Of a DNA stretch of 32,459 bases, positions 3,847-32,459 are shown in pieces. The notes under the pieces are model-generated. The model saw nothing but the letters and a program-made list of their open reading frames with translations, searched no databases and was not told the origin of the DNA. Positions within the stretch are counted from its first letter, which is position 1; each line of letters starts with the position of its first letter. Origin of the DNA: a virus. Where the stretch lies: positions 1 to 32,459 of IMG/VR virus record IMGVR_UViG_3300007276_000167, one strand, 5' to 3'. The translations under genes and the position numbers were made by a program.

Positions 3847-4580
3847 TTTTATCTAAATCGAATGTTTCAGCTACTGCAACTATTGTTGATAGCCCTGTAT
3901 CAGCAACACAGGATATTAATGTTATTGCTGATGGTGATTACTCCAGTGTTTATGTGGCAGCAATGGCAGGCACTCACTCGACGACTTTTACTTATGGCAC
4001 AGCTCAAGAGATTGGCTATATAGCTATAGCGGGCAATATCTCACAGAAAACAAGTATAGAAATTAAATGCGACACTGTAACAGTCGTTAATAATACGCTT
4101 GGCAGTAATGACGCTCAGGTCATGGTGTTTAACGTCGATCAAACTGGAATAACTACGGTTGAGATTATTGTCACAGGAACCGGCGATATTGCAATTATAG
4201 AGATGGCTATGGGTGAGTATTACACAGTACCCCATAACGGCGAGCAGGCAGGCTATAAACGACCATGGACTGTGCCTAATAGAGAATCACGCGGCGCTAA
4301 GTCTTTGAATAGCTCTCCTATTGCTTTGCTGTATCAAGCCAAGACGATTAAATCATCTCTGTCTATTCCTAATAATCTAATGAGTGAATATCAGGGGTAT
4401 TATGATTTCTTAGACTTCGCCACTACTAATACATTTTATGTGCTTGAGGATGACAATGTATTTCACTCATGTGCGGGCTTTGATGCTAAGGCGATGGAGA
4501 CAAAAGCGCACGGAGTCACAAGGCTGCTAGGTGTGTCATCAATATCATTTAACGCATATTCAAAGGGCTTGATCCTATGA
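3843..4580 (+). CDS. Distal tail-like protein
   Basis: A 245-residue, strand-rich protein located between the tape measure and the tail tip protein, the usual slot of the distal tail (Dit or lambda gpM/L-like) protein that forms the baseplate ring under the tube. The N-terminal half resembles a beta-sandwich (strands with VTVVNNTLG, TVEIIVTGTGDIAI). The C-terminal half has a YYDFLDFATTNTFYVLED segment, which resembles ring domains of distal tail proteins. It starts with GTG in a GTGA overlap and ends in an ATGA overlap, so it is tightly coupled with its neighbours. No firm family motif was seen; the call is from position. Confidence 0.6.
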   Translation: MILSKSNVSATATIVDSPVSATQDINVIADGDYSSVYVAAMAGTHSTTFTYGTAQEIGYIAIAGNISQKTSIEIKCDTVTVVNNTLGSNDAQVMVFNVDQTGITTVEIIVTGTGDIAIIEMAMGEYYTVPHNGEQAGYKRPWTVPNRESRGAKSLNSSPIALLYQAKTIKSSLSIPNNLMSEYQGYYDFLDFATTNTFYVLEDDNVFHSCAGFDAKAMETKAHGVTRLLGVSSISFNAYSKGLIL

Positions 4581-6916
4581 GGACGGAGTTCGCGCAATAT
4601 CACTATTCACTTTATGAATTAATCCTGCCTTATTGCACTGTCTGTACTCCGGTCGATGGGGTGAATGGTACGTGGCACACACCTATAACGTGTACGCAGT
4701 CGAGCGATTCTACTTATTCATTGTGGTTTACATCTCAGGACGCACCCAATGTAAGCCAGCCATCAGCATCAATCACAGGCAAATCGATACTTAATAGTAA
4801 GATATTTAAGTGCGTTAGTTCTTCGAGTGAATCAACGCCACAGATTAAGCCTGGTAAGGGTATGTCGAGCCGTTCAACGATTACGTTATCAATGACTGAT
4901 TTCGATAGTGACCCAGGCCCGATTAATTTCAGTGATAACGGTTCATTCTTTGGGAAGCTATTAGCGCGTAATATTTTAGATGGTAAGCAACTGAAGGTTT
5001 ATAACTACGCTATTGCTGATGGGGTTAGCTATGAAATATCCACAGCTATCTATTTTATTGAATCATCTCAACTGTCTGGCAATCAATTTAAGATTACTGG
5101 TAAAGATGCGCTCAAGGATATTGAGAAATTCAACGAACAATTCCCAACACCATCAACTATTACATTAACGGCTGATATTACAGAATCACAATTAACTATT
5201 CCTGTAACAGAGACTACAGGGCTTGCTGCGATTGATAGGGTGATAATCGGTGAAGAGATAATCAGGATTGATAGTTTAACGGCTAACTCGATTACTTGTA
5301 CGGCTAGAGGTGCGGATCAGATAGGCACAGGCGGTATATTATTATATAGAACCACAGCAGAGGCTCATGACTCAGGCGACACTGTACAGCTCTGCTACGT
5401 GATGAACGCTTACCCTTTGGCTAATATGCTAACTACTATTTACAATCATGTTGGCCTGTCTGCTTATGTTGATTTTACACAATGGAATAATGAGATAACC
5501 GAGTGGAATTCATCGGCCTTGCTTTACGGTATCTTTACTGAGCCAGCCCCTGCTATAGATTTGATTAATCAAATGCTCGAAGTGTATATGGTTGATATGT
5601 GGCTAAATCAATCAACTCAGAAAGTAGTTGTTTCAGCAGTTAGTGCTTGGAAGGAATCAATAAGAACACTATCTGAAGTCAACGACATTCAAAACTTAAA
5701 GGTAAAGACACAGCCTAACCAACGCTATTCAAGGGCATACATTACCCACAGAAAGCCCTACCAAGCACTATCAGATGACAAGAACAATTATAAAAAGTAT
5801 ACGGTATACACTGACACAGCATCAGAGTCTTCTGATTTGTACGGCGATGTTTCAATGTATGAATTCGACCCTTGCCGGTTTATATCTGACTCGTCATCAA
5901 CAATATTAGCGAGTCGGTTTGTTCAGCGGTTCAATGAGCCACCAAAAGAAATCTCATTCAATATTGAAGAGCGTAAATTATCCGGCACTTCGCTTGGTGA
6001 TGTTGTCGACATTATATCGAGAGACAGCCAACTCCCTGATGGCACAGAATACGGCGGCAAGATAACGGCACAGATTACACAGCTAAAACCTGTTGTTAAT
6101 GGTATAGGCCGATACTACGCAGCTAAGGCACTTAGTTATATTCCTTTAATCGATACAGGCGGCGGCCCATTAGTTATATTTATATCTGGCACAGTTTTTG
6201 ATTTAAACCTATATGACAGGGCAGGCGCTCCGGCTTCAGCTGTTGATGTCACCTTTGTATTGCAGGGCGCTACTATAGGCTCTAGCTCTTCACAATACGC
6301 AATGCGGGCGGGTAACTTTGCGTCAGGGTCAACGGTTAAGATCATAGCCACAGCAGGTACTAAGTGGGCGGCTAAGGGCGGACTAGGGGGAACAGGCGGC
6401 ACAGGGGTTCCTGGTGATTCATCGGGTCAAGTAGGTAGTGATTCCTACCAATCAGACAGCATAACTACGCAAATCTATCTTAATTATGGAGTTGTCGATA
6501 CCTATACAACTGATGGTGAGCTATATGCAGCAGGAGGCGGCGGCGGTTGTGTTATTCAAGACGGTACAGGTACGGGGAGAACATTACTTAACGGTGGCGG
6601 CGGATCGGGCATTCCTGGTGGACTGGGTGGCGTTACACCTCCAAGCGCAACATATACACCAACCAACGGGTCAAACGGTAGCTTTAGTGCTGGTGGACTG
6701 GGTGGAGTTTTTGGTGGGTCTATTGCTGCTGGTGACGGTGGGTTTTCTTTAGATGGTGTTGCAGGTAATGACGGCGGAGTGCCTATTTATGTAACTTATC
6801 CTGGCGGCTCTGCTGGCGGAGCATTTAAAGGCACAGGAATAACAGTATATAATTTGGCGGCAAGTGCGTCCAAGCTCCGAGATGGCAACTCAGACGTTTA
6901 TACTTTAGTGACTTAG
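4577..6916 (+). CDS. Tail tip/hub protein with glycine-rich C-terminal adhesin-like domain
   Basis: A 779-residue protein that ends the tail block. Roughly residues 1-520 look like a tail hub: mixed strands, a GRYYAAKALSYIPL segment near 512-525 and a long region of repeated strand motifs. From about residue 585 the sequence becomes glycine rich, with runs such as GGLGGTGGTG, AAGGGGG and GGGGSGIPGGLGG up to about 765. Such glycine-rich stretches form polyglycine-II helix bundles in gp38-type receptor-binding adhesins of phages such as S16, and occur at the end of several central fibre proteins. The likely role is receptor recognition at the tail tip. The downstream stop region overlaps the end of a minus-strand lipoprotein gene by 12 bases. 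Confidence 0.75.
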   Translation: MRTEFAQYHYSLYELILPYCTVCTPVDGVNGTWHTPITCTQSSDSTYSLWFTSQDAPNVSQPSASITGKSILNSKIFKCVSSSSESTPQIKPGKGMSSRSTITLSMTDFDSDPGPINFSDNGSFFGKLLARNILDGKQLKVYNYAIADGVSYEISTAIYFIESSQLSGNQFKITGKDALKDIEKFNEQFPTPSTITLTADITESQLTIPVTETTGLAAIDRVIIGEEIIRIDSLTANSITCTARGADQIGTGGILLYRTTAEAHDSGDTVQLCYVMNAYPLANMLTTIYNHVGLSAYVDFTQWNNEITEWNSSALLYGIFTEPAPAIDLINQMLEVYMVDMWLNQSTQKVVVSAVSAWKESIRTLSEVNDIQNLKVKTQPNQRYSRAYITHRKPYQALSDDKNNYKKYTVYTDTASESSDLYGDVSMYEFDPCRFISDSSSTILASRFVQRFNEPPKEISFNIEERKLSGTSLGDVVDIISRDSQLPDGTEYGGKITAQITQLKPVVNGIGRYYAAKALSYIPLIDTGGGPLVIFISGTVFDLNLYDRAGAPASAVDVTFVLQGATIGSSSSQYAMRAGNFASGSTVKIIATAGTKWAAKGGLGGTGGTGVPGDSSGQVGSDSYQSDSITTQIYLNYGVVDTYTTDGELYAAGGGGGCVIQDGTGTGRTLLNGGGGSGIPGGLGGVTPPSATYTPTNGSNGSFSAGGLGGVFGGSIAAGDGGFSLDGVAGNDGGVPIYVTYPGGSAGGAFKGTGITVYNLAASASKLRDGNSDVYTLVT

Positions 6917-7495
6917 AGCACTAGTGACGAGTTGAGCAGTAAGATTATGGCCTTCATCATCGTATTCAGTGCCGACTAATGGAGCGCTTTCAATAATTGG
7001 GCCTTCGCAAACATCAGTAATATAATCGCGAACTTGCTGAATAATGGGTTGTAAGTCAGGGTTTTCAGTCAAAGGAGGTAGCAGGCAGTATATCTCACGA
7101 TCAAGATAAACTCCGTTAGCCATTATCGTTGCGTAGTTTGATTTAAAACCCGCTAGTGACTGATTGCCAGATAGTATGTTTTTAGCCTCTGTGTGACCTA
7201 TCGCCATAATCAAGCTGCCGTTAACCGTTGCCTCGATAAAGTGGTAATAATCATTAATATTATTAAAGTGGCCATCAATGCAGCGGCGCTTATTATATAC
7301 ACCAAAGCCGCTAATGCGATCAGGCCAAGGGGTAATTAAGCCGGTTGATGTATTACACAGAGCGTCACCTATAACCACAATTCGTTTAGTTGAATCTGGC
7401 TCAGGCTCTGCGGGTGGTGTTGATGTATTATCTGACCCTCCGCTTTTACATGCAGTTAGCAGGGCTATTAATGCTATAGATAATAAAATCTTCAT
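6905..7495 (-). CDS. SGNH-hydrolase-like lipoprotein with an altered nucleophile motif
   Basis: A 196-residue predicted lipoprotein. The signal peptide MKILLSIALIALLTAC has a clear lipobox (LTAC, Cys16), followed by a Pro/Glu/Ser-rich linker. The mature domain has an SGNH-like frame: strand IVVIGDALCN (block I, residues 40-48), and near the end YDDEGHNLTAQL, matching the block V D-x-x-H (Asp180, His183). The block I serine, normally GDS, is alanine here (GCT), and block III reads GHTEAKN instead of GxND, so activity is doubtful. Start chosen at 7495 because AAAGGA lies 8-13 bases upstream; a longer frame adds 12 residues before the signal peptide. It is convergent with the tail tip gene. Possible jobs: surface receptor masking (superinfection exclusion) or a decayed esterase. 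Confidence 0.72.
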   Translation of the reverse strand: MKILLSIALIALLTACKSGGSDNTSTPPAEPEPDSTKRIVVIGDALCNTSTGLITPWPDRISGFGVYNKRRCIDGHFNNINDYYHFIEATVNGSLIMAIGHTEAKNILSGNQSLAGFKSNYATIMANGVYLDREIYCLLPPLTENPDLQPIIQQVRDYITDVCEGPIIESAPLVGTEYDDEGHNLTAQLVTSALSH

Positions 7496-7537
7496 GAGTA
7501 TGTTTCCTTTAGTCAATAGGTAGTCAGACAAGGCGGC

Positions 7538-23655: not shown

Positions 23656-25110
23656 ATGAACACCAACAACCAGAAATTCAAAGCAGATGATTTATATATT
23701 GATTCTCTGCCAGTATGGGCGCAAATCAGAGCGGCTATTCTCGGCAAGCCTGGAGTGGTTAGGCTGCTAACAGCTGATCAGGGATACTTCAGCATCATTG
23801 CCCCGAGCTATCGCAGTTCTAACAGCACAGAGCTAACTAAGCGCAAGTTTGACTACTTCTCTCGGGGTCGATTTACCAACTTTACCGGAACCACTCACGA
23901 CACCTATCTGGGCATGATTGGCGAAAAGGCTATTGAGGTTGAACTACCTGATAGGCTGGAAGAGCTAAAGAATAACGCTGATGGTACTAATTCAACAATG
24001 CAGGACTTTGCTAATGCTATTACTAGTGAGGTATTAATCACTGCTCGATCTGGTGTATTGGTCGACCCTCCTACATTGGCCGGTGGTACGTTGGCAGACG
24101 CTAACCAAGCACTGCCCAAATGGATACCCTACACAGCAGAGAATATTAAGAGTTACGTGGTCGACAAAGACGTATTAGTTCAGGTCTGTCTGTGTGAAAC
24201 CTATTACCAATATGAGAACGGTGAATATGAATTAGCCAGTCAAGAACGTGTATTAAATCTGCGCGATGGTGTTTATACAGTAACGGTATATAGGGATGGT
24301 GTTCAGTCTGGCGAAATCATCATACCTTTGGTTAATGGCAGAGCGCTCGACTTCATACCTTTTCAATTTATCGGCTCAGAGAATAATAACCCATCTTATG
24401 ACAGGCCAGTAATGTTCGACCTTGCTCATCAGAATCTAGGCCATTTTATGCTTGATTGTGATAATCGGGACAACCTGCACTATCACGGCCAGGGCATGAC
24501 TAACGTCTATAGCAATATGGGCGATGAGGCATTCACAGAATTAAACCCTGAAGGCATGGACGTTGGTGCCAAGGGTAAAAACATGTTTGAGCAGGGTGAT
24601 AGGGTAGAGATATTACAGATTGAAGCCACAGGCGCTATTGCCTCTGAAATGCTGAGAGATGAGCAGCGCATGATTATGTTGGGCGCTCAAGTGGTTCAGG
24701 ACAAATCATCATCTAAGACATTAGGCGGTGAGGTGATGGAAAAGAATGCAGCTACATCACAACTTAAGCGTATCGCCTCGAATGTATCGGCAGGGCTTAC
24801 TCAGTGCGCTATCTGGTCGGCTGATATTATGGGCGTGTCATCTGATGACATACTGATAAAAGTTAATGACAAGTTTGTGACCGAATCGATGACGTTTCAA
24901 GACGTTCTCGCCATGTTCCAGATGGTTCAAGGTGGTGCGGCTTCACTGAATGAGCTGCAAGAGGTTAAGCGCAAGGCAAACTACACTGATAAAACAAACG
25001 CAGAGCTTGAAGATGATCTGACCAATGAATCTGATGGCATGTCTGAAACTGAAGCGGCTTTATTGCTAAGGATTGAGCAGTTAGAAAATCCGGTATCTGT
25101 TGATGAGTAA
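23656..25110 (+). CDS. Portal protein (DUF4055 type)
   Basis: 484 residues right after the terminase. DUF4055 portal features: the VWAQIRAAILGKPGVVRLLT opening, RKFDYFSRGRFTNFTGTTHDTYLGMI, ITSEVLITARSGVLVDPP and the helical RMIMLGAQVVQDKSSSKTLGGEV near residues 345-363. It forms the dodecameric ring at the vertex through which DNA enters. An acidic tail follows. Three bases separate it from terL. Confidence 0.92.
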   Translation: MNTNNQKFKADDLYIDSLPVWAQIRAAILGKPGVVRLLTADQGYFSIIAPSYRSSNSTELTKRKFDYFSRGRFTNFTGTTHDTYLGMIGEKAIEVELPDRLEELKNNADGTNSTMQDFANAITSEVLITARSGVLVDPPTLAGGTLADANQALPKWIPYTAENIKSYVVDKDVLVQVCLCETYYQYENGEYELASQERVLNLRDGVYTVTVYRDGVQSGEIIIPLVNGRALDFIPFQFIGSENNNPSYDRPVMFDLAHQNLGHFMLDCDNRDNLHYHGQGMTNVYSNMGDEAFTELNPEGMDVGAKGKNMFEQGDRVEILQIEATGAIASEMLRDEQRMIMLGAQVVQDKSSSKTLGGEVMEKNAATSQLKRIASNVSAGLTQCAIWSADIMGVSSDDILIKVNDKFVTESMTFQDVLAMFQMVQGGAASLNELQEVKRKANYTDKTNAELEDDLTNESDGMSETEAALLLRIEQLENPVSVDE

Positions 25111-25351
25111 TGTTACCCCGTTAAATCAGGCTATAGGGCTAGCGTATATCGTTGACGAATGCGGCAATAATGGCATCACTCATGTTGACTGGCCGGTTGA
25201 TTTAATGAAGATTGACGGCAATGCCTGCATGATTGACAAAGTTAGCGGCGAGATTAGCGAGGTTATGGAGTCAAACCTATTCAATTCAATCATCTACTTC
25301 TGGTTATTATTAGACGCTCCTGAATTGTTTGAGCATGTGAAGGAACACTGA
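25103..25351 (+). CDS. Hypothetical protein between portal and MuF (82 residues)
   Basis: ATG at 25103 lies within the end of the portal gene; a TTG three bases earlier is the alternative. Contents: NQAIGLAYIVDECGNNG, HVDWPVDLMKIDG and NLFNSIIYFWLLLDAPELFEHV, a helical end with an aromatic core. It ends where the next gene begins (overlap of one base). Possible virion cofactor of the portal; not recognised. Confidence 0.55.
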   Translation: MSNVTPLNQAIGLAYIVDECGNNGITHVDWPVDLMKIDGNACMIDKVSGEISEVMESNLFNSIIYFWLLLDAPELFEHVKEH

Positions 25352-26460
25352 TGGCAGCTAATGAGGAGTTGATAGCACTGGAAGCCAAGCACAACCTCTA
25401 TATTCAGCGTGTGGCTGTCGGCTTAGGCAATGACGCCAAGCCTTATATTGCAGCGATGCAGCAAGATATAACTAACCGCATCAATCGCGAAGTTGGCAAG
25501 AATCTAACGGCTAACCGGCGCAAGAAGCTATTAGCTGACATCAACGAGATTACCCGCACTCACTTAAACGAATACAACAAAGAGTTATCCACAGGCAATG
25601 CGGCAGTCGGTAAGTACGAAGCTGACTGGCAATCTAAAACTATTGGGGCGATGTATCCAGAAGCAGAAGCAGCTGTGGTTACAAAGGCGGCGGTAAATGT
25701 AGCCGCTAAAACTTCACTGATTAAACTGGGTGAAGGCTCATACACTTCTTACAATCAGATGCTCAGAAATTACACCAATAAGAATGCTCAGCAGATCAGC
25801 GCTATTGTGGCGAATGGCTTTGTTGGGGGTGTATCGACAAGAGAGATTGCAGGCCAGGTACTAGCAGAAACCGACAACCGGATTATCAAAACACAGAAGG
25901 AGGCAATGGGTATAGCTCGCACAGGGACGAACCATTATGCCAACACAGCCAGACAGGTATATTTTGAAGAGGAGCCGTTAGTCGAGTATATGCAGCATAT
26001 CTCAGTACTTGATTCACGTACTAGCCGTATATGTTCCTCAAGGGATGGCGCTATATTCAAAAAGGAAGAGCGCCGATACTATCCGCCACTTCACTATAAT
26101 TGCCGTTCAGCTGTTAGCCCCTATATTCAGGCTGATGATGACGAAGATGAAATAGGTTACAGGCCATCAAATTTCCGCGATGCTGATAGTGGATTGTTGC
26201 AGCCTACTCAGACCAACTCAAAGCAGATATTTTATGATGAGTTTGCCAAACTTGGTAATAAGAAAGGAGGCGCGGCAACTCAGGACGCTCAACTAGGCCC
26301 AACATTAGGTAAGGCATTCCGCAAAGGCATCAAGGACAAATCTATAACCCCTGAGTCATTCGCAGCGATGACCATTGATGACAAGAATCTAACCCCTTTG
26401 ACTTTGACAGAGATGAAGGACAAGGATAATGCTCTTGGCAGGATACTTAGAGGCCAATAA
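25351..26460 (+). CDS. MuF/SPP1 gp7-type head morphogenesis protein
   Basis: 369 residues. Family motif in the middle: GIARTGTNHYANTARQVYFE, then ISVLDSRTSRICSSRDG and PPLHYNCRSAVSPY, as in the SPP1 gp7/Mu gpF minor head protein family (R-T-S-x-x-C...PPLHxNCR). N-terminal 130 residues are helical. Minor capsid protein, probably inside the head and injected with DNA. C-terminal 90 residues do not match a known toxin, though MuF proteins sometimes carry one. Confidence 0.9.
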   Translation: MAANEELIALEAKHNLYIQRVAVGLGNDAKPYIAAMQQDITNRINREVGKNLTANRRKKLLADINEITRTHLNEYNKELSTGNAAVGKYEADWQSKTIGAMYPEAEAAVVTKAAVNVAAKTSLIKLGEGSYTSYNQMLRNYTNKNAQQISAIVANGFVGGVSTREIAGQVLAETDNRIIKTQKEAMGIARTGTNHYANTARQVYFEEEPLVEYMQHISVLDSRTSRICSSRDGAIFKKEERRYYPPLHYNCRSAVSPYIQADDDEDEIGYRPSNFRDADSGLLQPTQTNSKQIFYDEFAKLGNKKGGAATQDAQLGPTLGKAFRKGIKDKSITPESFAAMTIDDKNLTPLTLTEMKDKDNALGRILRGQ

Positions 26461-26527
26461 TAAGCGGGAGAGTTTTGGTTATCATTTATCTCCATAGATT
26501 CACACCTATTGACACCCCAACTTAAAC

Positions 26528-26628
26528 CTATTTCTTTTGATAGGGGTTTATATACCCCTTAAACCTGCTTAATTTCCCTTTAGTTTAAACACCCCTTAAA
26601 CACACCCCCAAATATATTGTCAAGGGGG
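26528..26628. other. Hairpins after the MuF gene (candidate terminators)
   Basis: AGGGGT-TTATAT-ACCCCT (26542-26559, perfect six-pair stem), overlapping CCTAT/ATAGG (26528-26544), then CCCCC/GGGGG (26605-26609 and 26624-26628) with 14-base loop. ACCCCTTAAAC occurs twice. None has a long T run. They separate the upstream transcript from the strong promoter of the scaffold gene. Confidence 0.4.
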
Positions 26629-26661
26629 CCAATTGAAATCGAATGACACTCCCTCGATATG

Positions 26662-26716
26662 TGACACTTTATGTCAGAAAGTGACGCTATTTGTCAGAAA
26701 GTGACAATATTTGTCA
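26662..26716. promoter_or_regulatory. Three tandem palindromic operators, period 20 bp
   Basis: TGACA-N5-TGTCA (26662-26676), TGACG-N5-TGTCA (26682-26696), TGACA-N5-TGTCA (26702-26716). The three start positions are exactly 20 bases apart (about two helix turns). The last overlaps the -35 box TTGTCA of the promoter at 26711-26739. The centres are about 77, 57 and 37 bases before the expected start, so a cooperative regulator should lie along one face of DNA. Confidence 0.8.
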
Positions 26717-26739
26717 CAATTGCAAAATGCGTTTATAAT
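26711..26739 (+). promoter_or_regulatory. Strong regulated promoter of scaffold and capsid genes
   Basis: TTGTCA (26711-26716, five of six matches), 17-base spacer, TATAAT (26734-26739, perfect). The expected start near 26746 leaves a 34-base leader before the scaffold ATG. Overlap with the third operator palindrome makes this a regulated late promoter. Confidence 0.85.
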
Positions 26740-26779
26740 TCTCAATGACGGGCTAGGCCCACAACGCATAAGGTGCATC

Positions 26780-27424
26780 ATGGATTTATCAACAATAGAA
26801 GGTTTAACAGACGAGCAAAAGTCCCTTATTAACAAGGTTCACGATAAAGACGTCGAGGGCTTAATTAATAAACGTGATGAACTGCTTGGCAAGATCAGCG
26901 AGTCCAAGGCTGTTGTTTCAGAAAGTGAGCAAAAGGTTGAGGACGCAAGAAAAGCGGCTGTAAAGGCTGATGAAGCAAGGCTGATAGCTGAGGGGAAGTT
27001 TGAAGAAGCTCAGAAATTGGGCGAGGCCGAACGATCTAGATTAGTTGCTGAAGCAAACTCGAAGGCTGAGATTGCTAATAATTTGTTAAAGCAGCGAGAT
27101 TTAAACGATGTCCATTTTGACATTTTAGGCAAGGTTCACGATAACTTCACGCCAGCAGCAAAGGCGATGTTAAATGCCGATACGGACGTGTCTTATAGTG
27201 AAGATGGCAAACCAACGATTTCTATTCGCTCCGGCGGCAAGGAATTTAATACAACAGAAGACTTTTTAAAACACGCAGAAACTGATCCTACTTGGTCAGC
27301 AATGCTTAAGGCTCCAGATACCAAGGGTTCAGGCGCAAACAATTCACAAGGCGGTCAGGCGGCCAGTGATGATCCAGACGCAGCATTTAAACAACGACTC
27401 CGCGCAAGCGGTCTGACTTCTTAA
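26780..27424 (+). CDS. Scaffolding protein
   Basis: 214 residues from ATG 26780, with AAGGTG six bases upstream. A frame open further upstream begins at TTG 26711 but would run through the promoter. The protein is highly charged and helical (coiled-coil part EQKVEDARKAAVKADEARLI, AQKLGEAERSRLVAEANSKA), with a disordered Gly/Ser-rich C-terminal part. Typical of scaffold proteins that guide capsid assembly and leave before packaging. Directly before the capsid gene. Confidence 0.82.
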   Translation: MDLSTIEGLTDEQKSLINKVHDKDVEGLINKRDELLGKISESKAVVSESEQKVEDARKAAVKADEARLIAEGKFEEAQKLGEAERSRLVAEANSKAEIANNLLKQRDLNDVHFDILGKVHDNFTPAAKAMLNADTDVSYSEDGKPTISIRSGGKEFNTTEDFLKHAETDPTWSAMLKAPDTKGSGANNSQGGQAASDDPDAAFKQRLRASGLTS

Positions 27425-27453
27425 TAGGGGCTTATGCCTCAAGGTGAATTATC

Positions 27454-28431
27454 ATGGCTTTATCAAATATGCAGGTTTATAACGAGGAGATTCGTTTACG
27501 CACTATCGAATTACTCGGACAAAAATTAACGGCGTTTAATGCTGGTTCAGGTGGCGCTATTCAATTAATCCCAGGCCGATGGATGGGTAACTTTGACAAG
27601 GCTTCGTTTTTTGCCTCGGTTGCTGGCGCTCAGCGTCGAGTAGTACGAACAGGCGCAAATGCTACGCAAGCGGCAACACCTTTGGCTGAGTCTGAATTAG
27701 TAGGCGTTAAGGTTGCAGGCGGTTTCGGCCCCATCATCTTTGAGCCTTCTCAGATTACCTATCTGAATGACGACCCACAGAATGCGATTAATAGCATTGC
27801 TGAAGGTTTTGCCGATGCTCTATTGGCTGACCAACTCAATACTGTTGTTGCTTCTGGTGTTGCTGCTGTTGAGAATGTCCCTGCATTGGTTAACGATGTT
27901 TCAGCATTGACATCAGGTGCGGGTGCTTTGACGCAGACCGCTATCAACGGCGCTCACGCTAAGTTTGGTGATATGTCAGGAATGCTGGTTGCTGATGTAA
28001 TGAGCGGAGCTGCTTATCATAAGTTGCTACAAAAGGGCTTAGAGAACGGCGAGCGTTTGTTTCAGTCTAGCAATGTGACAATCCAGTCTATTCTTGGCAA
28101 GGTGTTTGTTGTTTCGGATATTCCTGCTTTGACCGACACATCTGGAACACCTGATTTGTATAAGGTGTTGTCATTGGTTAGCGGTGGTCTGATTGTTGAT
28201 GGTTCTAGCGACATTATCACCAACATTGACACCACTAACGGCAATGAGCGGATTGATACAACCTTCCAGGCTGATTACACTTTCGGCAGCAAGGTTAAGG
28301 GATACGCTTGGAATACAGCTATTGCCTCACCCACAGATGCCCAACTAGCAACTGGCGCAAACTGGGTTAATGCAATGTCTAGCACTAAGCACACTGCCGG
28401 TGTGTTAACCATTGCTGATCAAGCACAGTAA
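27454..28431 (+). CDS. Major capsid protein
   Basis: 325 residues, the main head protein by position (after scaffold, before a clean terminator) and composition: long N-terminal helical part (NEEIRLRTIELLGQKLTAFN), repeated TTLASGVAAV-like strands, FGPIIFEPSQITYLNDDPQN (E-loop like), and C-terminal DTTFQADYTFGSKVKGYAW, a frequent ending of HK97-fold coat proteins. AGGTGA seven bases before the ATG. Expected to be the most abundant virion protein; the terminator after it supports high expression. Confidence 0.88.
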   Translation: MALSNMQVYNEEIRLRTIELLGQKLTAFNAGSGGAIQLIPGRWMGNFDKASFFASVAGAQRRVVRTGANATQAATPLAESELVGVKVAGGFGPIIFEPSQITYLNDDPQNAINSIAEGFADALLADQLNTVVASGVAAVENVPALVNDVSALTSGAGALTQTAINGAHAKFGDMSGMLVADVMSGAAYHKLLQKGLENGERLFQSSNVTIQSILGKVFVVSDIPALTDTSGTPDLYKVLSLVSGGLIVDGSSDIITNIDTTNGNERIDTTFQADYTFGSKVKGYAWNTAIASPTDAQLATGANWVNAMSSTKHTAGVLTIADQAQ

Positions 28432-28436
28432 TCCTA

Positions 28437-28460
28437 TAGGGGCTTAACGGCCCCTTTTTT
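28437..28460 (+). terminator. Rho-independent terminator after capsid
   Basis: GGGGC, six-base loop, GCCCC, then TTTTTT (28439-28460). Ends or reduces transcription from the scaffold-capsid promoter so that downstream structural genes get less message. Confidence 0.92.
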
Positions 28461-28481
28461 CATTCTTTAGGAGTTTGAATT

Positions 28482-28652
28482 GTGGGCGAAGATTATAAAA
28501 TTAAATACTTAAAGCATCCTGTCGATATGAAGGAAGTTAAAAAGTGGCGAGCTAAAGGCTTTGATGTAATCGATGCCAAGTTTGACCCTAACCCCAAAGC
28601 AGTTACGGAGCCTCCTGTCTTAATGGCAGATGATAAACCGGCTTTATTGTAA
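28482..28652 (+). CDS. Small protein after capsid (56 residues)
   Basis: Starts with GTG 28482, preceded by AGGAG eight bases upstream. MGEDYKIKYLKHPVDMKEVK, then WRAKGFDVIDAKFDPNPKAV and a short hydrophobic end. The pattern (KYLKHPVS..K...GFKIIDARF) recurs in phages directly after capsid or in head blocks; the role is unknown, perhaps a small head protein. Terminators lie on both sides. Confidence 0.65.
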   Translation: MGEDYKIKYLKHPVDMKEVKKWRAKGFDVIDAKFDPNPKAVTEPPVLMADDKPALL

Positions 28653-28670
28653 TATTGCCCAACTAAATAG

Positions 28671-28693
28671 CCTCCTTAATTGGGGGTTTTTTT
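28671..28693 (+). terminator. Second terminator in the head block
   Basis: CCTCC, loop of six, GGGGG followed by seven T (28671-28693). An alternative pairing of CCCAA (28658-28662) with TTGGG (28680-28684) exists. The following bases hold a small perfect stem GCCTA/TAGGC (28696-28710) and CGAAG/CTTCG (28725-28740), then the low-complexity stretch 28757-28800 with repeated TCCCTCA. No gene is seen until 28851. Confidence 0.75.
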
Positions 28694-28850
28694 ATGCCTA
28701 TAATTTAGGCTATACTTAATATGTCGAAGTGAGGGCTTCGGCACGTTGCCGCGCGGTGACACCTTACCCTCTCCCTCATCCCTCAATAGTCCCTCATCCC
28801 TTAACTGCCCTCAACGCCCTTTTACTAGGGCTTTAACATCAGGCAGCATA

Positions 28851-29111
28851 ATGTTAACTAGGAATGAGCTTTTACAACGAATATCTGAATTAGTTAACCC
28901 CGTTGCAGTTCCTTATGTAATTGATGAGCGCACAAGAAACAATCTTCTTGAGCTTGCCATTAATGTATCTGGTGGAAGTGTTCCAATTCCATCGGGCATT
29001 ACTAGAAACGAATTATTGCGGCTATTGCTTGATGTTATTAGTCCTACACCTATCCCGCCTAACTGGTTCGACCCTGAAGCATGGGATGATTCTGAAAACT
29101 GGACGGATTAA
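28851..29111 (+). CDS. TRN-repeat protein A before the beta-helix fibre
   Basis: 86 residues from ATG 28851. Contains three copies of a T-R-N-x-L-L unit: LTRNELLQRISELVNPV, TRNNLLELAINVSGG and ITRNELLRLLLDVISPTPIPP. The C-terminus is acidic and Trp-rich. A shorter sister protein (31442-31633) with the same three units lies on the other side of the beta-helix gene. The start codon has only a weak ribosome site. Function unknown; repeat modules in structural blocks often act as chaperones or binding pegs. Confidence 0.65.
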   Translation: MLTRNELLQRISELVNPVAVPYVIDERTRNNLLELAINVSGGSVPIPSGITRNELLRLLLDVISPTPIPPNWFDPEAWDDSENWTD

Positions 29112-29114
29112 ATT

Positions 29115-31154
29115 ATGCCTAGAATACCATTAGAACCAACAACGCATGGCGACATTAGAAACAGTCTAAACACCATGTTAACCAATGATGTATACGCGCC
29201 TCGCTCTACTTTGTATTTTGATAGTAATGCAACAGCACAAGGCAGCGGTTCAGCTGTTGACCCTTATAACGATTGGGCGGATTTATTGACTTTTGTAAAC
29301 GCTAATCCAAGCACAGAATATTCAGTAGCCGTTCAAGCCGGTTCTCATACCAACGTAACGTATGCACCTAATTTATCGGTGGTGGGCTTAGGTTCGGCCA
29401 ATGTTATTCGAGTAACGAATGAGGTTATTTATTCTGACCCATCAGGCTATCAAGGCGAAACGTCCAATCTCACCTTTGAACAATCTGTCACGTTTGATGC
29501 TGACAATAATTACAAAATGCAGTTTGACGGGATCGCTTTTGATAACGGATTAACCTTCGGTTGCCGCTTGACTGACCCGACAAACTACGTTCGTTTTAAT
29601 GCCTGCACCTTTCAAGGTTCGGTTGAAACGAATTTAAAAGCTCCGCGAATAGCGATTTCTAACTGTATTATCACGCCCCAAGCAAATGAGCCACTTATTA
29701 TTCAAAACGATGGTGCGCTTATCGGTCAGAATATTGACTGTGTTATGAATACATGTGTTATTGGTGCGGAAGTACAAGTTATCGCTGATACAGGTAATGT
29801 GACGGTGACTATAACTGACTGCTCATTGCCGCCTACATTCTCCATAGTGACTAACAGTATCGGCACCGGAACAGCCTTAGTAGTTTTTGATGATGTTACG
29901 TATATACAAGCTGTTAATCTTGGTGTTGATTTAACCGGCGTTAATTACGTTGTACTTTCGTCATTCATACAGAGCTTTGTGGGAACAGCCCGCTATTTTG
30001 ATGTTAATGCCCCTGATGGTGGTGATGGTGGAAGTGGCCGTGAATATAATGCCTGGGCCGATGTGGTTAGTTTGGCCGATGCTAATCCAAGCCTGGATTT
30101 TACAATTTGGCTATCATCAGCTGAAATTCCTGACGTGACAATCCGCGAAAATGTATCAATGAGGGCACAAGGCTCGGATGAAAATACATCAGTAGTGGTA
30201 GCTAATGCCTATACTGGTGACCATGAAGGAAGTTTCCGTGATGTTACATTTACTGATTATTTCAACTTTGGGAATGCTACATCAAACCTCCAAACAGCCT
30301 TTGAAAACGTGTCATTCAAACAAGGCATTCACGCCATCAGCAATACAAGCGGCCAACTAACATTCAATAATTGCACCATGTTGGCCAATGCGACTAATAA
30401 TGTCCTTGATGTTGATAATGGGATTTATAGGGGTTGTACGTTTGGCGGGGGTGATAGCACGATTTTCACCACAGCATCAAGAAGCCAACCCAGTGTAGAT
30501 AGTGTGCAATTATTTGATTGTAGTTTGGAAAGTAATTCAATCCAGTTTTTGTGTCAGTCATTTAAAACCATGAACATCACAATGACTTCATGCCGATTCA
30601 ATACTTCAAGTGTGACGTTTGAATTGCCCGCTAATGCCAATATAGCGCTAACAGTGGATGCTATGAGTGAAGATGCGTTAATCAATGCGGGTGCTGATTT
30701 AATTCAAACAGGATTAACTGTCATTCGTTTAAATACTTATCCACCCTATTTGTATGAATACAATGATTCAGCGCCATCAACCTCATCAACCACCACCCAA
30801 GCTAATAATGACACAGCACCAACAAATTGGGTTACATGCAAATCTTGGTTTGTGCCTGATGTTCAGCCTAGCGGTATTTATGAGTTAACGGTGAATTGGT
30901 CATATAGTTTGAATTCAACAGGCAAGCGGGCATTTTTTCAACTGTTAATTAACGGCGCACCTTACGACCCATTTTATAGAAAAGAACCCAAAGAATCTGA
31001 TGATTTGGTTTATGAATCTTTAACCTTGGCATTGGATTTGGCCACAACCCAACAAAATCAATTTTTATTTCAAATGCTGATTGAAGGTGCGGGTGGTGGA
31101 ACCCCGACATTAACAGTTGATAAAATGACATTTATTTTTGAAAGGAAGGGATAA
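29115..31154 (+). CDS. Beta-helix fibre/decoration protein with duplicated modules
   Basis: 679 residues. The pattern is that of a right-handed beta-helix (repeats such as VRFNACTFQGSVETN, ISNCIITPQAN, LTFNNCTMLANATNN, YRGCTFGGGD), made of two related modules: YFDSNATAQGSGSAVDPYND at residue 34 and YFDVNAPDGGDGGSGREYNA at residue 294, each followed by ADANPS-type sequence (WADLLTFVNANPST and WADVVSLADANPSL). C-terminal 115 residues (from about 565) form a different strand-rich head. The gene lies inside the head block, so a head fibre or capsid decoration is likelier than a tail spike. Possible polysaccharide-binding. No catalytic residues could be identified. Confidence 0.72.
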   Translation: MPRIPLEPTTHGDIRNSLNTMLTNDVYAPRSTLYFDSNATAQGSGSAVDPYNDWADLLTFVNANPSTEYSVAVQAGSHTNVTYAPNLSVVGLGSANVIRVTNEVIYSDPSGYQGETSNLTFEQSVTFDADNNYKMQFDGIAFDNGLTFGCRLTDPTNYVRFNACTFQGSVETNLKAPRIAISNCIITPQANEPLIIQNDGALIGQNIDCVMNTCVIGAEVQVIADTGNVTVTITDCSLPPTFSIVTNSIGTGTALVVFDDVTYIQAVNLGVDLTGVNYVVLSSFIQSFVGTARYFDVNAPDGGDGGSGREYNAWADVVSLADANPSLDFTIWLSSAEIPDVTIRENVSMRAQGSDENTSVVVANAYTGDHEGSFRDVTFTDYFNFGNATSNLQTAFENVSFKQGIHAISNTSGQLTFNNCTMLANATNNVLDVDNGIYRGCTFGGGDSTIFTTASRSQPSVDSVQLFDCSLESNSIQFLCQSFKTMNITMTSCRFNTSSVTFELPANANIALTVDAMSEDALINAGADLIQTGLTVIRLNTYPPYLYEYNDSAPSTSSTTTQANNDTAPTNWVTCKSWFVPDVQPSGIYELTVNWSYSLNSTGKRAFFQLLINGAPYDPFYRKEPKESDDLVYESLTLALDLATTQQNQFLFQMLIEGAGGGTPTLTVDKMTFIFERKG

Positions 31155-31300
31155 TGCCAGTACATAAAGTAGGTAATAAGTATCAGTGGGGTAAGAGCGG
31201 TAAGAAATACCCAACTAAGGCCCAAGCAGAGGCTCAAGGTAGGGCGGTTTATGCTAATGGCTATCGTGGTGAATCAAGAAGCAGATCAAAGGGCAAATGA
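31154..31300 (+). CDS. Small basic head-block protein (48 residues)
   Basis: MPVHKVGNKYQWGKSGKKYP, then TKAQAEAQGRAVYANGYRGE and a Ser/Arg/Lys tail. The Y-x-W-G-K-S-G-K-x-Y-x-T-x-A-Q-A-E-A-Q-x-R-A motif recurs in phages as a small gene or as a tail of larger head proteins; the role is unknown to me. AAGGAAGG precedes the ATG. Basic tail suggests contact with DNA. Confidence 0.65.
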   Translation: MPVHKVGNKYQWGKSGKKYPTKAQAEAQGRAVYANGYRGESRSRSKGK

Positions 31301-31404
31301 TGTATTCTGTCGGTTGTGATTGTGTTCATTATGCCAAGATGGAATACAGGCCGACCATCTGCGATAGGGTTAGATTATTCTTTGAGCGCATTGGATTTAT
31401 CTAG
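31297..31404 (+). CDS. Tiny protein (35 residues)
   Basis: ATG 31297 overlaps the preceding stop as ATGA. MMYSVGCDCVHYAKMEYRPT, then ICDRVRLFFERIGFI; three cysteines near the start and middle. Translational coupling is the main support. Function unknown; it may be only an unselected frame. Confidence 0.35.
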   Translation: MMYSVGCDCVHYAKMEYRPTICDRVRLFFERIGFI

Positions 31405-31426
31405 TTTTTGTGTTTATGGCTATGGC

Positions 31427-31435
31427 TGTTATAAT
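31427..31435 (+). promoter_or_regulatory. Extended -10 promoter at the TRN-repeat gene
   Basis: TGTTATAAT (31427-31435), a perfect extended -10 (TG-n-TATAAT) without a clear -35. The start of transcription would be at about 31442, the A of the ATG, so the message could be leaderless. No ribosome site is visible before this gene, which agrees. Confidence 0.4.
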
Positions 31436-31441
31436 TAAGCC

Positions 31442-31633
31442 ATGACTAGAAACGAATTATTCGATCAAATATCTGAGCTAATTAGTGTGACTCCGGCACT
31501 GTATGCCATCACGCCAAAAACTAGAAATCAGTTACTTGATGACATCATTGTTCAGTATGGCGGAACGTCATCACCAAACCTCACCAGAAACGAGATGCTT
31601 AAGCAGATTTTAGCCCTCGCACCAACACCATAA
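31442..31633 (+). CDS. TRN-repeat protein B
   Basis: 63 residues: MTRNELFDQISELISVTPAL, TRNQLLDDIIVQYGG and LTRNEMLKQILALAPTP, the same three-unit layout as protein A (28851-29111). An exact 17-base match (ACTAGAAACGAATTATT, 29001-29017 and 31444-31460) shows recent common origin. Located between the fibre and the adaptor gene. Function unknown. Confidence 0.65.
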   Translation: MTRNELFDQISELISVTPALYAITPKTRNQLLDDIIVQYGGTSSPNLTRNEMLKQILALAPTP

Positions 31634-31642
31634 GGTTTAATC

Positions 31643-32164
31643 ATGCCGCTAACCGTAGAAGATGGAACAGTTGTAGCTAATGCTAATAGCTTCATCAGCC
31701 TGGCAGATGCTCGCCTAATGGCTACTGATATGGGGCTTGTTATTGATGCTGATGACACAATAGCAGAGACACAGCTAAGGCAGAGCTATTACCAATTAGT
31801 TAAGTCTTATCAGAACCGATTACAGGGCAATATTGTTGACCCTACTCAAACCGGCATCTTTCCGCGCCGTAATGTTTACGCTCATGGCTATTTAGTAGCT
31901 TCTAACTCAATACCTATTGATGTACAACGAGCCCAGATAACTTATGGCGACTCGATTAATAAAGGTGCAGACTTCAACAAGACTGCTGATGATCAAGAGC
32001 TTAAAGGCTTTAATGTTCAGGGCGTTTATTCCGAGGATTATAAAGACGGCTCGAATGCCCGTACTACTCCGCTTGTGCCTGCTGTGTCGCAATGGCTAAA
32101 CCCTTACTTAAAGAGTTCAGGGCTACATCGTGAAGAGTTTTTCTATAGCGGGATAAATATCTAA
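31643..32164 (+). CDS. Head-tail adaptor (DnaT-like family)
   Basis: 173 residues. Start MPLTVEDGTVVANANSFISL, ADARLMATDMGL, then QLRQSYYQLVKSYQNRLQG and GIFPRRNVYAHGYLV, the pattern of the phage adaptor family often labelled DnaT-like ssDNA-binding; such proteins form the adaptor ring below the portal. A C-terminal part SQWLNPYLKSSGLHREE is conserved in these families. The stop overlaps the next start (ATG at 32164). Confidence 0.85.
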   Translation: MPLTVEDGTVVANANSFISLADARLMATDMGLVIDADDTIAETQLRQSYYQLVKSYQNRLQGNIVDPTQTGIFPRRNVYAHGYLVASNSIPIDVQRAQITYGDSINKGADFNKTADDQELKGFNVQGVYSEDYKDGSNARTTPLVPAVSQWLNPYLKSSGLHREEFFYSGINI

Positions 32165-32459
32165 TGGGCGGCCTATCAGTAGCTGCTAAGGTAGTTCGCG
32201 GATTAGCTAAAGCCAATGTAAAAGTGGGCGAGAATGACTCGCCTATTCTTACACTTGTCAAAGTCACTGTGACAGGTGGTGGTAATAACCCTTTCGACCC
32301 ACCTGTGACAACTACTGAAAACATCGTATTAGTTAACGCTATATTCAAGAGCATTGATAAGTCATCGATTGATAATGACCTGATTAAAGATGGTGACAGG
32401 GAGCTGGTCTGTGATGGTGCTACTGAGATTAAACAGGGCGAGGTTATAGAGTCGTCAAC
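32164..32459 (+). CDS. Head-closure/connector protein, N-terminal part (continues at base 2)
   Basis: ATG at 32164 overlapping the adaptor stop. Begins MGGLSVAAKVVRGLAKANVK, followed by VGENDSPILTLVKVTVTGGG and beta-rich sequence. The reading frame is open to the window end and continues from base 2 to the stop at 209-211, total 127 residues. Between adaptor and gp10-like protein it should be the head-closure (stopper) protein. See the entry at 2-211. Confidence 0.7.
   Translation, partial: MGGLSVAAKVVRGLAKANVKVGENDSPILTLVKVTVTGGGNNPFDPPVTTTENIVLVNAIFKSIDKSSIDNDLIKDGDRELVCDGATEIKQGEVIESS
32337..32459. repeat. Terminal direct repeat, right copy
   Basis: Identical to 1-123. It reflects the overlap of a circular assembly (see left copy). 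Anyone counting genes should remove one copy. Confidence 0.93.

Follow-up and report, generated by a model that had tools for sequence, protein, structure and literature searches.

Three copies of the palindrome TGACR-N5-TGTCA follow one another upstream of the scaffold and capsid genes of a phage, and the last of them runs into the -35 box of the promoter of these genes. The sequence-only reading of this DNA had interpreted the repeats as an operator array and had offered as possible binders three phage proteins, an HTH protein (9934), a winged-helix protein (13327) and a Cro-like protein (15777), or else a host factor. The locus therefore raises the question of which class of regulator recognizes such an array, and what its position over a capsid promoter would mean for the phage.

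The array and the scaffold-capsid promoter

The window, that is the whole stretch of DNA analysed, is a viral record of 32,459 bases. Given the 123-base direct repeat at its ends (1-123 and 32337-32459), the record is probably a complete genome, circular or terminally redundant. Neither a tRNA nor an Rfam family was detected in the window. At the end of the tail genes, an ORF on the opposite strand (6905-7531, minus strand) encodes a lipoprotein-like product whose signal contains LLTACKSGG, possibly a moron or exclusion gene. The features of the scaffold-capsid region are collected in Table 1.

Table 1. Coordinates of the array, the promoter and the neighbouring genes in the window
Feature	Position	Strand	Description
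Head morphogenesis (minor head) gene	25351..26460	+	upstream; homologous to L061 8830-9915, PHROG head morphogenesis protein
Intergenic region	26463..26779	.	head morphogenesis gene to scaffold gene; gap of 319 bases
20-bp tandem array	26661..26716	+	2.8 copies; both spacers GAAAG
Site 1	26662..26676	.	TGACACTTTATGTCA; centre about -77 from the expected start (26746); weight-matrix score 16.7
Site 2	26682..26696	.	TGACGCTATTTGTCA; centre about -57; weight-matrix score 18.5
Site 3	26702..26716	.	TGACAATATTTGTCA; centre about -37; right arm is the -35 hexamer; weight-matrix score 23.2, maximum of the window
Sigma70-type promoter, scaffold/capsid genes	26711..26739	+	TTGTCA-17-TATAAT
Head scaffold gene	26780..27424	+	214 aa; ATG at 26780; first downstream gene; between minor head and major capsid genes, as in relatives
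Major capsid protein gene	27454..28431	+	PF20036, Gp13-like, E=9e-95

A motif scan of the whole window returned the three sites as the only exact matches to TGACR-N5-TGTCA. All three sites have palindromic TGAC/GTCA arms, and the fifth base is perfect only in sites 1 and 3, site 2 reading TGACG...TGTCA. The repeat unit is 20 bp including the GAAAG spacer, which is also present in other arrays (e.g., L057 and L115), and Tandem Repeats Finder gave the array a period of 20 and a score of 84, the highest in the window. A tandem pair at period 20 never appeared when the window was simulated 300 times with a first-order Markov model, and the expectation for a single site was 0.04. The exact periodicity announced by the sequence-only reading is thus borne out; the array occurs nowhere else in the window and greatly exceeds chance expectation. 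With a weight matrix trained on bacterial arrays alone, the three sites occupied the first three ranks among all positions of the window, the next score being far lower (10.2), and all of them are confined to one promoter region. By this rank, the array belongs to the motif class found at pilin promoters, and its 20-bp period matches that of L115 and others. Imperfect repeats, with CTTAAAC/TTTAAAC words 37 bp apart, are found just upstream in the same intergenic gap (26521-26601).

The -35 hexamer TTGTCA (26711-26716), supplied by site 3, is separated by 17 bp from the -10 hexamer TATAAT (26734-26739). This pair matches the sigma70 consensus at 11 of 12 positions and is the top promoter-like match in 24001-32459, which supports both the near-perfect promoter and the overlap of an operator array with its -35 box as they had been described. 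With transcription expected to begin near 26746, neighbouring site centres are separated by about two helical turns. The scaffold gene product has no Pfam match, and the major capsid protein is 70-72% identical to the proteins of Vibrio breoganii phages.

Occurrence of the array in viral and bacterial sequences

The array is rare. Among 2.9 million viral contigs scanned, paired TGACN6TGTCA sites at a 20-bp period were found in 72 stretches, whereas the control patterns gave 2 (period of 25 bp) and 1 (scrambled palindrome); exact-pattern scans of this kind miss arrays with different spacings or arms, many of the viral loci are fragments, and unique loci were deduplicated by eye using shared flanks. 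The consensus of the arrays is near TGACAAAAATTGTCA. A stricter pattern gave 11 bacterial loci, and in a sample of 369 gammaproteobacterial genomes six carried the array and none the reversed control. There is usually one array per genome. The independent lineages with an array include P22-like phages (L043, L082, L081 and L064), L061, L067, L080 and the window.

When cultured isolates with a full array were sought, BLAST gave only weak partial matches, the top one being in Pseudoalteromonas phage ACA1, upstream of ogr. In this cultured, P2-like phage (L339), several TGTCA/TGACA half-sites and a TGGCATACATGCAAC stretch (3980-4270) separate ogr from the gene of a FocB-like transcription factor, and ACA1 could perhaps serve as a test case in culture. 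Desulfovibrio sp. A2 has a GC-rich form of the array (L111, 4629-4743), in which TGACCGGTGCTGTCAGGGGG is repeated many times at 20 bp beside a 669-aa ORF; it looks like a minisatellite of the array motif.

The bacterial arrays mostly adjoin type IV pilin-like or pilus-machinery genes (L112, L114, L115, L117, L120, L325, L333, L334 and L336). Some of these loci may encode something other than a type IV pilus, since a type II secretion gene is found close to the pilin-like gene of L333. Beside the array of L334, L335 and L336 there is a gene whose product combines Sigma54_activat and HTH_8 domains. In L334 and L336 this gene directly adjoins the array, and a pilin gene follows immediately downstream; the two longer regulator ORFs among the three loci contain a receiver domain in addition. 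Since NCBIfam returned no equivalog above cut-off for these regulators, the label "PilR-type" refers here to the pilin neighbourhood and the domain set and is not a curated name. Outward-facing sigma54 -24/-12 promoters were found 20-220 bp from the array in 9 of 10 bacterial loci (0.4 expected) and in 21 of 48 viral loci (1.2 expected), and inward-facing ones in 1 bacterial and 3 viral loci. Taken together, the sigma54 promoters, the pilin genes and the regulator genes suggest, as the best reading of the array, a set of enhancer sites for an NtrC/PilR-type regulator, an assignment that is well supported at the level of the class. A literature search for the exact motif and for a PilR motif found no statement of TGACR-N5-TGTCA.

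Near-consensus sigma54 promoters lie beside the array in the viral loci L045, L050, L059, L070, L084, L086, L090, L093, L103, L104, L107 and L109, in divergent orientation in L050 and L090. They mostly drive genes of unknown function (e.g., PHROG 1221, 1448, 2319 and 2554).

These data also bear on the reading of the repeats as replication iterons or a chance tandem duplication. Direct repeats of 20 bp, close to the imperfect repeats at 26521-26601 and in an AT-rich intergenic region, would be in agreement with it. However, the copies share their palindromic arms but not their centres, the array is in strong excess over both control patterns and is linked to sigma54 promoters and pilin genes, and there is neither a shared replication protein nor a GC-skew switch at the array. 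This reading is disfavoured and we regard it as extremely improbable.

Arrays at the head genes of other phages

At the window array, no sigma54 -24/-12 promoter lies within about 200 bp, whereas 30 of 58 other loci have one. Arrays lacking such a promoter are found in other phages upstream of the scaffold gene (L043/L082 and L081, which are P22-like phages, and L061, a distant relative of the window), of the head protease gene (L067) and of the major head gene (L080). Further neighbours of viral arrays are terminase, helicase, minor tail, HNH or unknown genes. By simple tally of these loci, head genes are therefore frequent, not exclusive, neighbours of the array.

A sigma70 -35/-10 pair starting in the array or at most 12 bp from it was found in the window (0 of 500 shuffles), L067, L082, L061 and L064. 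The corresponding empirical p values, from flanks shuffled per locus and for cases picked after the data had been seen, are <0.002 for the window, 0.004 for L067, 0.036 for L082, 0.068 for L061 and 0.066 for L064. No sigma70 promoter overlaps the array in L043, L080 and L081. The idea of a palindrome over the -35 box as a general design was rejected: a general scan gave no excess over the control (90 versus 86), and a further site 20 bp upstream was absent from all 80 such loci examined. The overlap with the -35 box is thus not a universal design.

That arrays recur immediately ahead of scaffold, protease and coat genes, and that they overlap promoters, also matters for a possible decoy function. 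Each genome offers two or three strong sites, usually in a single array, which could titrate the host regulator as the phage DNA multiplies, lowering pilin and excluding other pilus-using phages, and the promoter overlap would then be incidental; the varied locations of the arrays would fit such a role. Both the placement and the overlap point instead to local regulation, and we consider a decoy very unlikely.

Conservation of the repeats in relatives had been proposed as a check of the operator reading. The comparison covered 35 related loci (Guernseyvirinae-like, L004-L038) and two Vibrio phages (L122 and L123), and no array was present upstream of the scaffold gene in any of them where the stretch was present. 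The expected conservation thus fails among the closest phage relatives, and the array is found again in unrelated phages. The near relatives of the L043 and L061 phages are likewise without it. Missing in close relatives and present in unrelated phages, the array is recurrent and independently placed, not inherited. At the corresponding place, L006, L007 and L008 have TTGTAA-N18-TATAAT without the array, and sigma70-like matches, though weaker, are also found at the position of the scaffold promoter in the Vibrio phages. As the promoter is kept in several relatives that lack the array, it appears to be the older element, and the array would have come to overlap its -35 box.

Candidate binding proteins

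The regulators beside the arrays of L334, L335 and L336 have an HTH_8 domain. No HTH_8 protein was found in 49 array-bearing viral contigs or in the window, while the positive control detected the family in 9 genomes, which suggests that the binder is probably encoded by the host. NinH, a Fis-like phage protein, was rejected as a candidate, its reported motif (a 15-bp G-N13-C site) being different and no Fis-type HTH_8 protein being present in the window.

The alternative is that the array is a switch for the late genes, recognized by a phage repressor or activator: the HTH_39 protein 9934, the winged-helix protein 13327 or the Cro-like protein 15777. It is consistent with the array being found a single time in the window, at an important promoter, and with the close relatives, which have neither the array nor close homologues of the three proteins. 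These homologues are absent from the array contigs too, so that a regulator specific to the window and using the motif is conceivable. Against this, none of the three proteins gave a tblastn match (E<0.01) in the array-bearing contigs examined. The HTH_39 family (PF14090), to which 9934 belongs, was found in 0 of the 49 array-bearing viral contigs, and 9934 was set aside for this lack of co-occurrence, a result of little weight as the control genomes were silent as well. Across 11 long contigs and additional fragments there is no regulator gene common to the array-bearing phages, the shared protein families being those of packaging, head and common phage genes only. In addition, the same array stands in bacteria at pilin genes, beside NtrC-type regulator genes. 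A phage-encoded binder is therefore judged unlikely. From the list offered by the sequence-only reading, it is the host factor that is favoured, since the bacterial arrays adjoin pilin and NtrC/PilR-type genes, and the three phage proteins are left unsupported.

Proposed role of the array

From the comparison of sequences, we propose with modest confidence, somewhat better than even, that sites for a host PilR-type regulator have been laid over the sigma70 promoter of the scaffold-capsid genes, where they would hold back capsid production according to a pilus- or surface-linked state of the host. The array would be bound by a host response regulator of the NtrC/PilR type with a Fis-type HTH, which would normally bind such arrays upstream of the sigma54 promoters of type IV pilin genes. 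In the phage, the array would lie over an older sigma70 promoter. Regulator dimers, spaced by 20 bp along the same face of the helix, would occupy the -35 region at site 3 as well as the DNA above it, holding back RNA polymerase for as long as the host regulator is active. Capsid production would thereby depend on a host state tied to pili or to contact with a surface. The usual role of enhancer-binding proteins is to activate sigma54 promoters from afar, and they less commonly repress a sigma70 promoter. Repression is favoured here because a regulator at site 3 would cover the -35 box. We infer that the binder may be PilR itself or a close paralogue, that its effect would be repression (or modulation) and that pili would matter for the phage.

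A host regulator could also activate the capsid promoter from these sites, or the sites could serve a distant sigma54 promoter that escaped detection. The array accompanies sigma54 promoters elsewhere, such enhancers can act from afar, and the -35 box is imperfect (TTGTCA), all of which would be in agreement with this option. Yet no sigma54 match of at least 9/12 occurs within 400 bp of the window array, the sigma70 promoter is close to consensus and its position is kept in several relatives, and site 3 covers the -35 box. Activation, direct or from a distance, is thus rather improbable.

The repression proposed for the window may be part of a wider pattern. As a more tentative suggestion, which we hold somewhat less probable than its opposite, unrelated phages would repeatedly have recruited PilR-class arrays, some driving genes through sigma54 and others covering a capsid sigma70 promoter, so that particle production would be deferred or timed by the pilus or surface-sensing state of the host.

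Comparison with known systems

Few host regulators are, to our knowledge, documented to control the late genes of phages. The array can be likened to the PilR enhancer sites upstream of pilA in Pseudomonas and Geobacter, where sites ahead of a pilin promoter are recognized by an NtrC-type response regulator. The sites at pilA activate a sigma54 promoter from a distance, whereas the phage array overlaps a sigma70 promoter, and the reported hallmarks of P. aeruginosa PilR sites, TGTN11AGA and GTCT elements (PMC6058289), are not exactly the phage palindrome.

Sites for host regulators within phage promoter regions are described for LexA in SOS-controlled phages (PMC9437464), but this repressor answers to DNA damage, and its spacing and motif differ from those of the array. 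The Spo0A boxes of the Bacillus phage phi29 are closer to the proposed role, being promoter-associated sites through which a response regulator of the host puts the lytic programme on hold in a virulent phage (PMC9437464); they differ in the regulator, the host phylum and the signal, which is sporulation.

Clusters of CtrA sites in pili- and flagellotropic phages of Alphaproteobacteria, for which "lytic deferment" was proposed with binding and reporter data in a work that does not mention PilR (PMC9437464), resemble the array in several respects: the sites are dense, confined to a promoter region and have arisen independently in several phage lineages, and CtrA is a host regulator of surface appendages, as is proposed for the binder of the array. 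CtrA can repress or activate (PMC9437464). It acts in Alphaproteobacteria, whereas the array belongs to the NtrC/PilR-like class of sigma54 activators and its target is a scaffold/capsid promoter. If PilR-type sites recur in phages outside Alphaproteobacteria, the idea of lytic deferment would cover a further regulator as well as sigma54 control, and common laboratory strains would suffice to test it. The tandem TGACA-N5-TGTCA at a 20-bp period would then be a simple signature for finding such phages, and perhaps for guessing that they use or watch pili.
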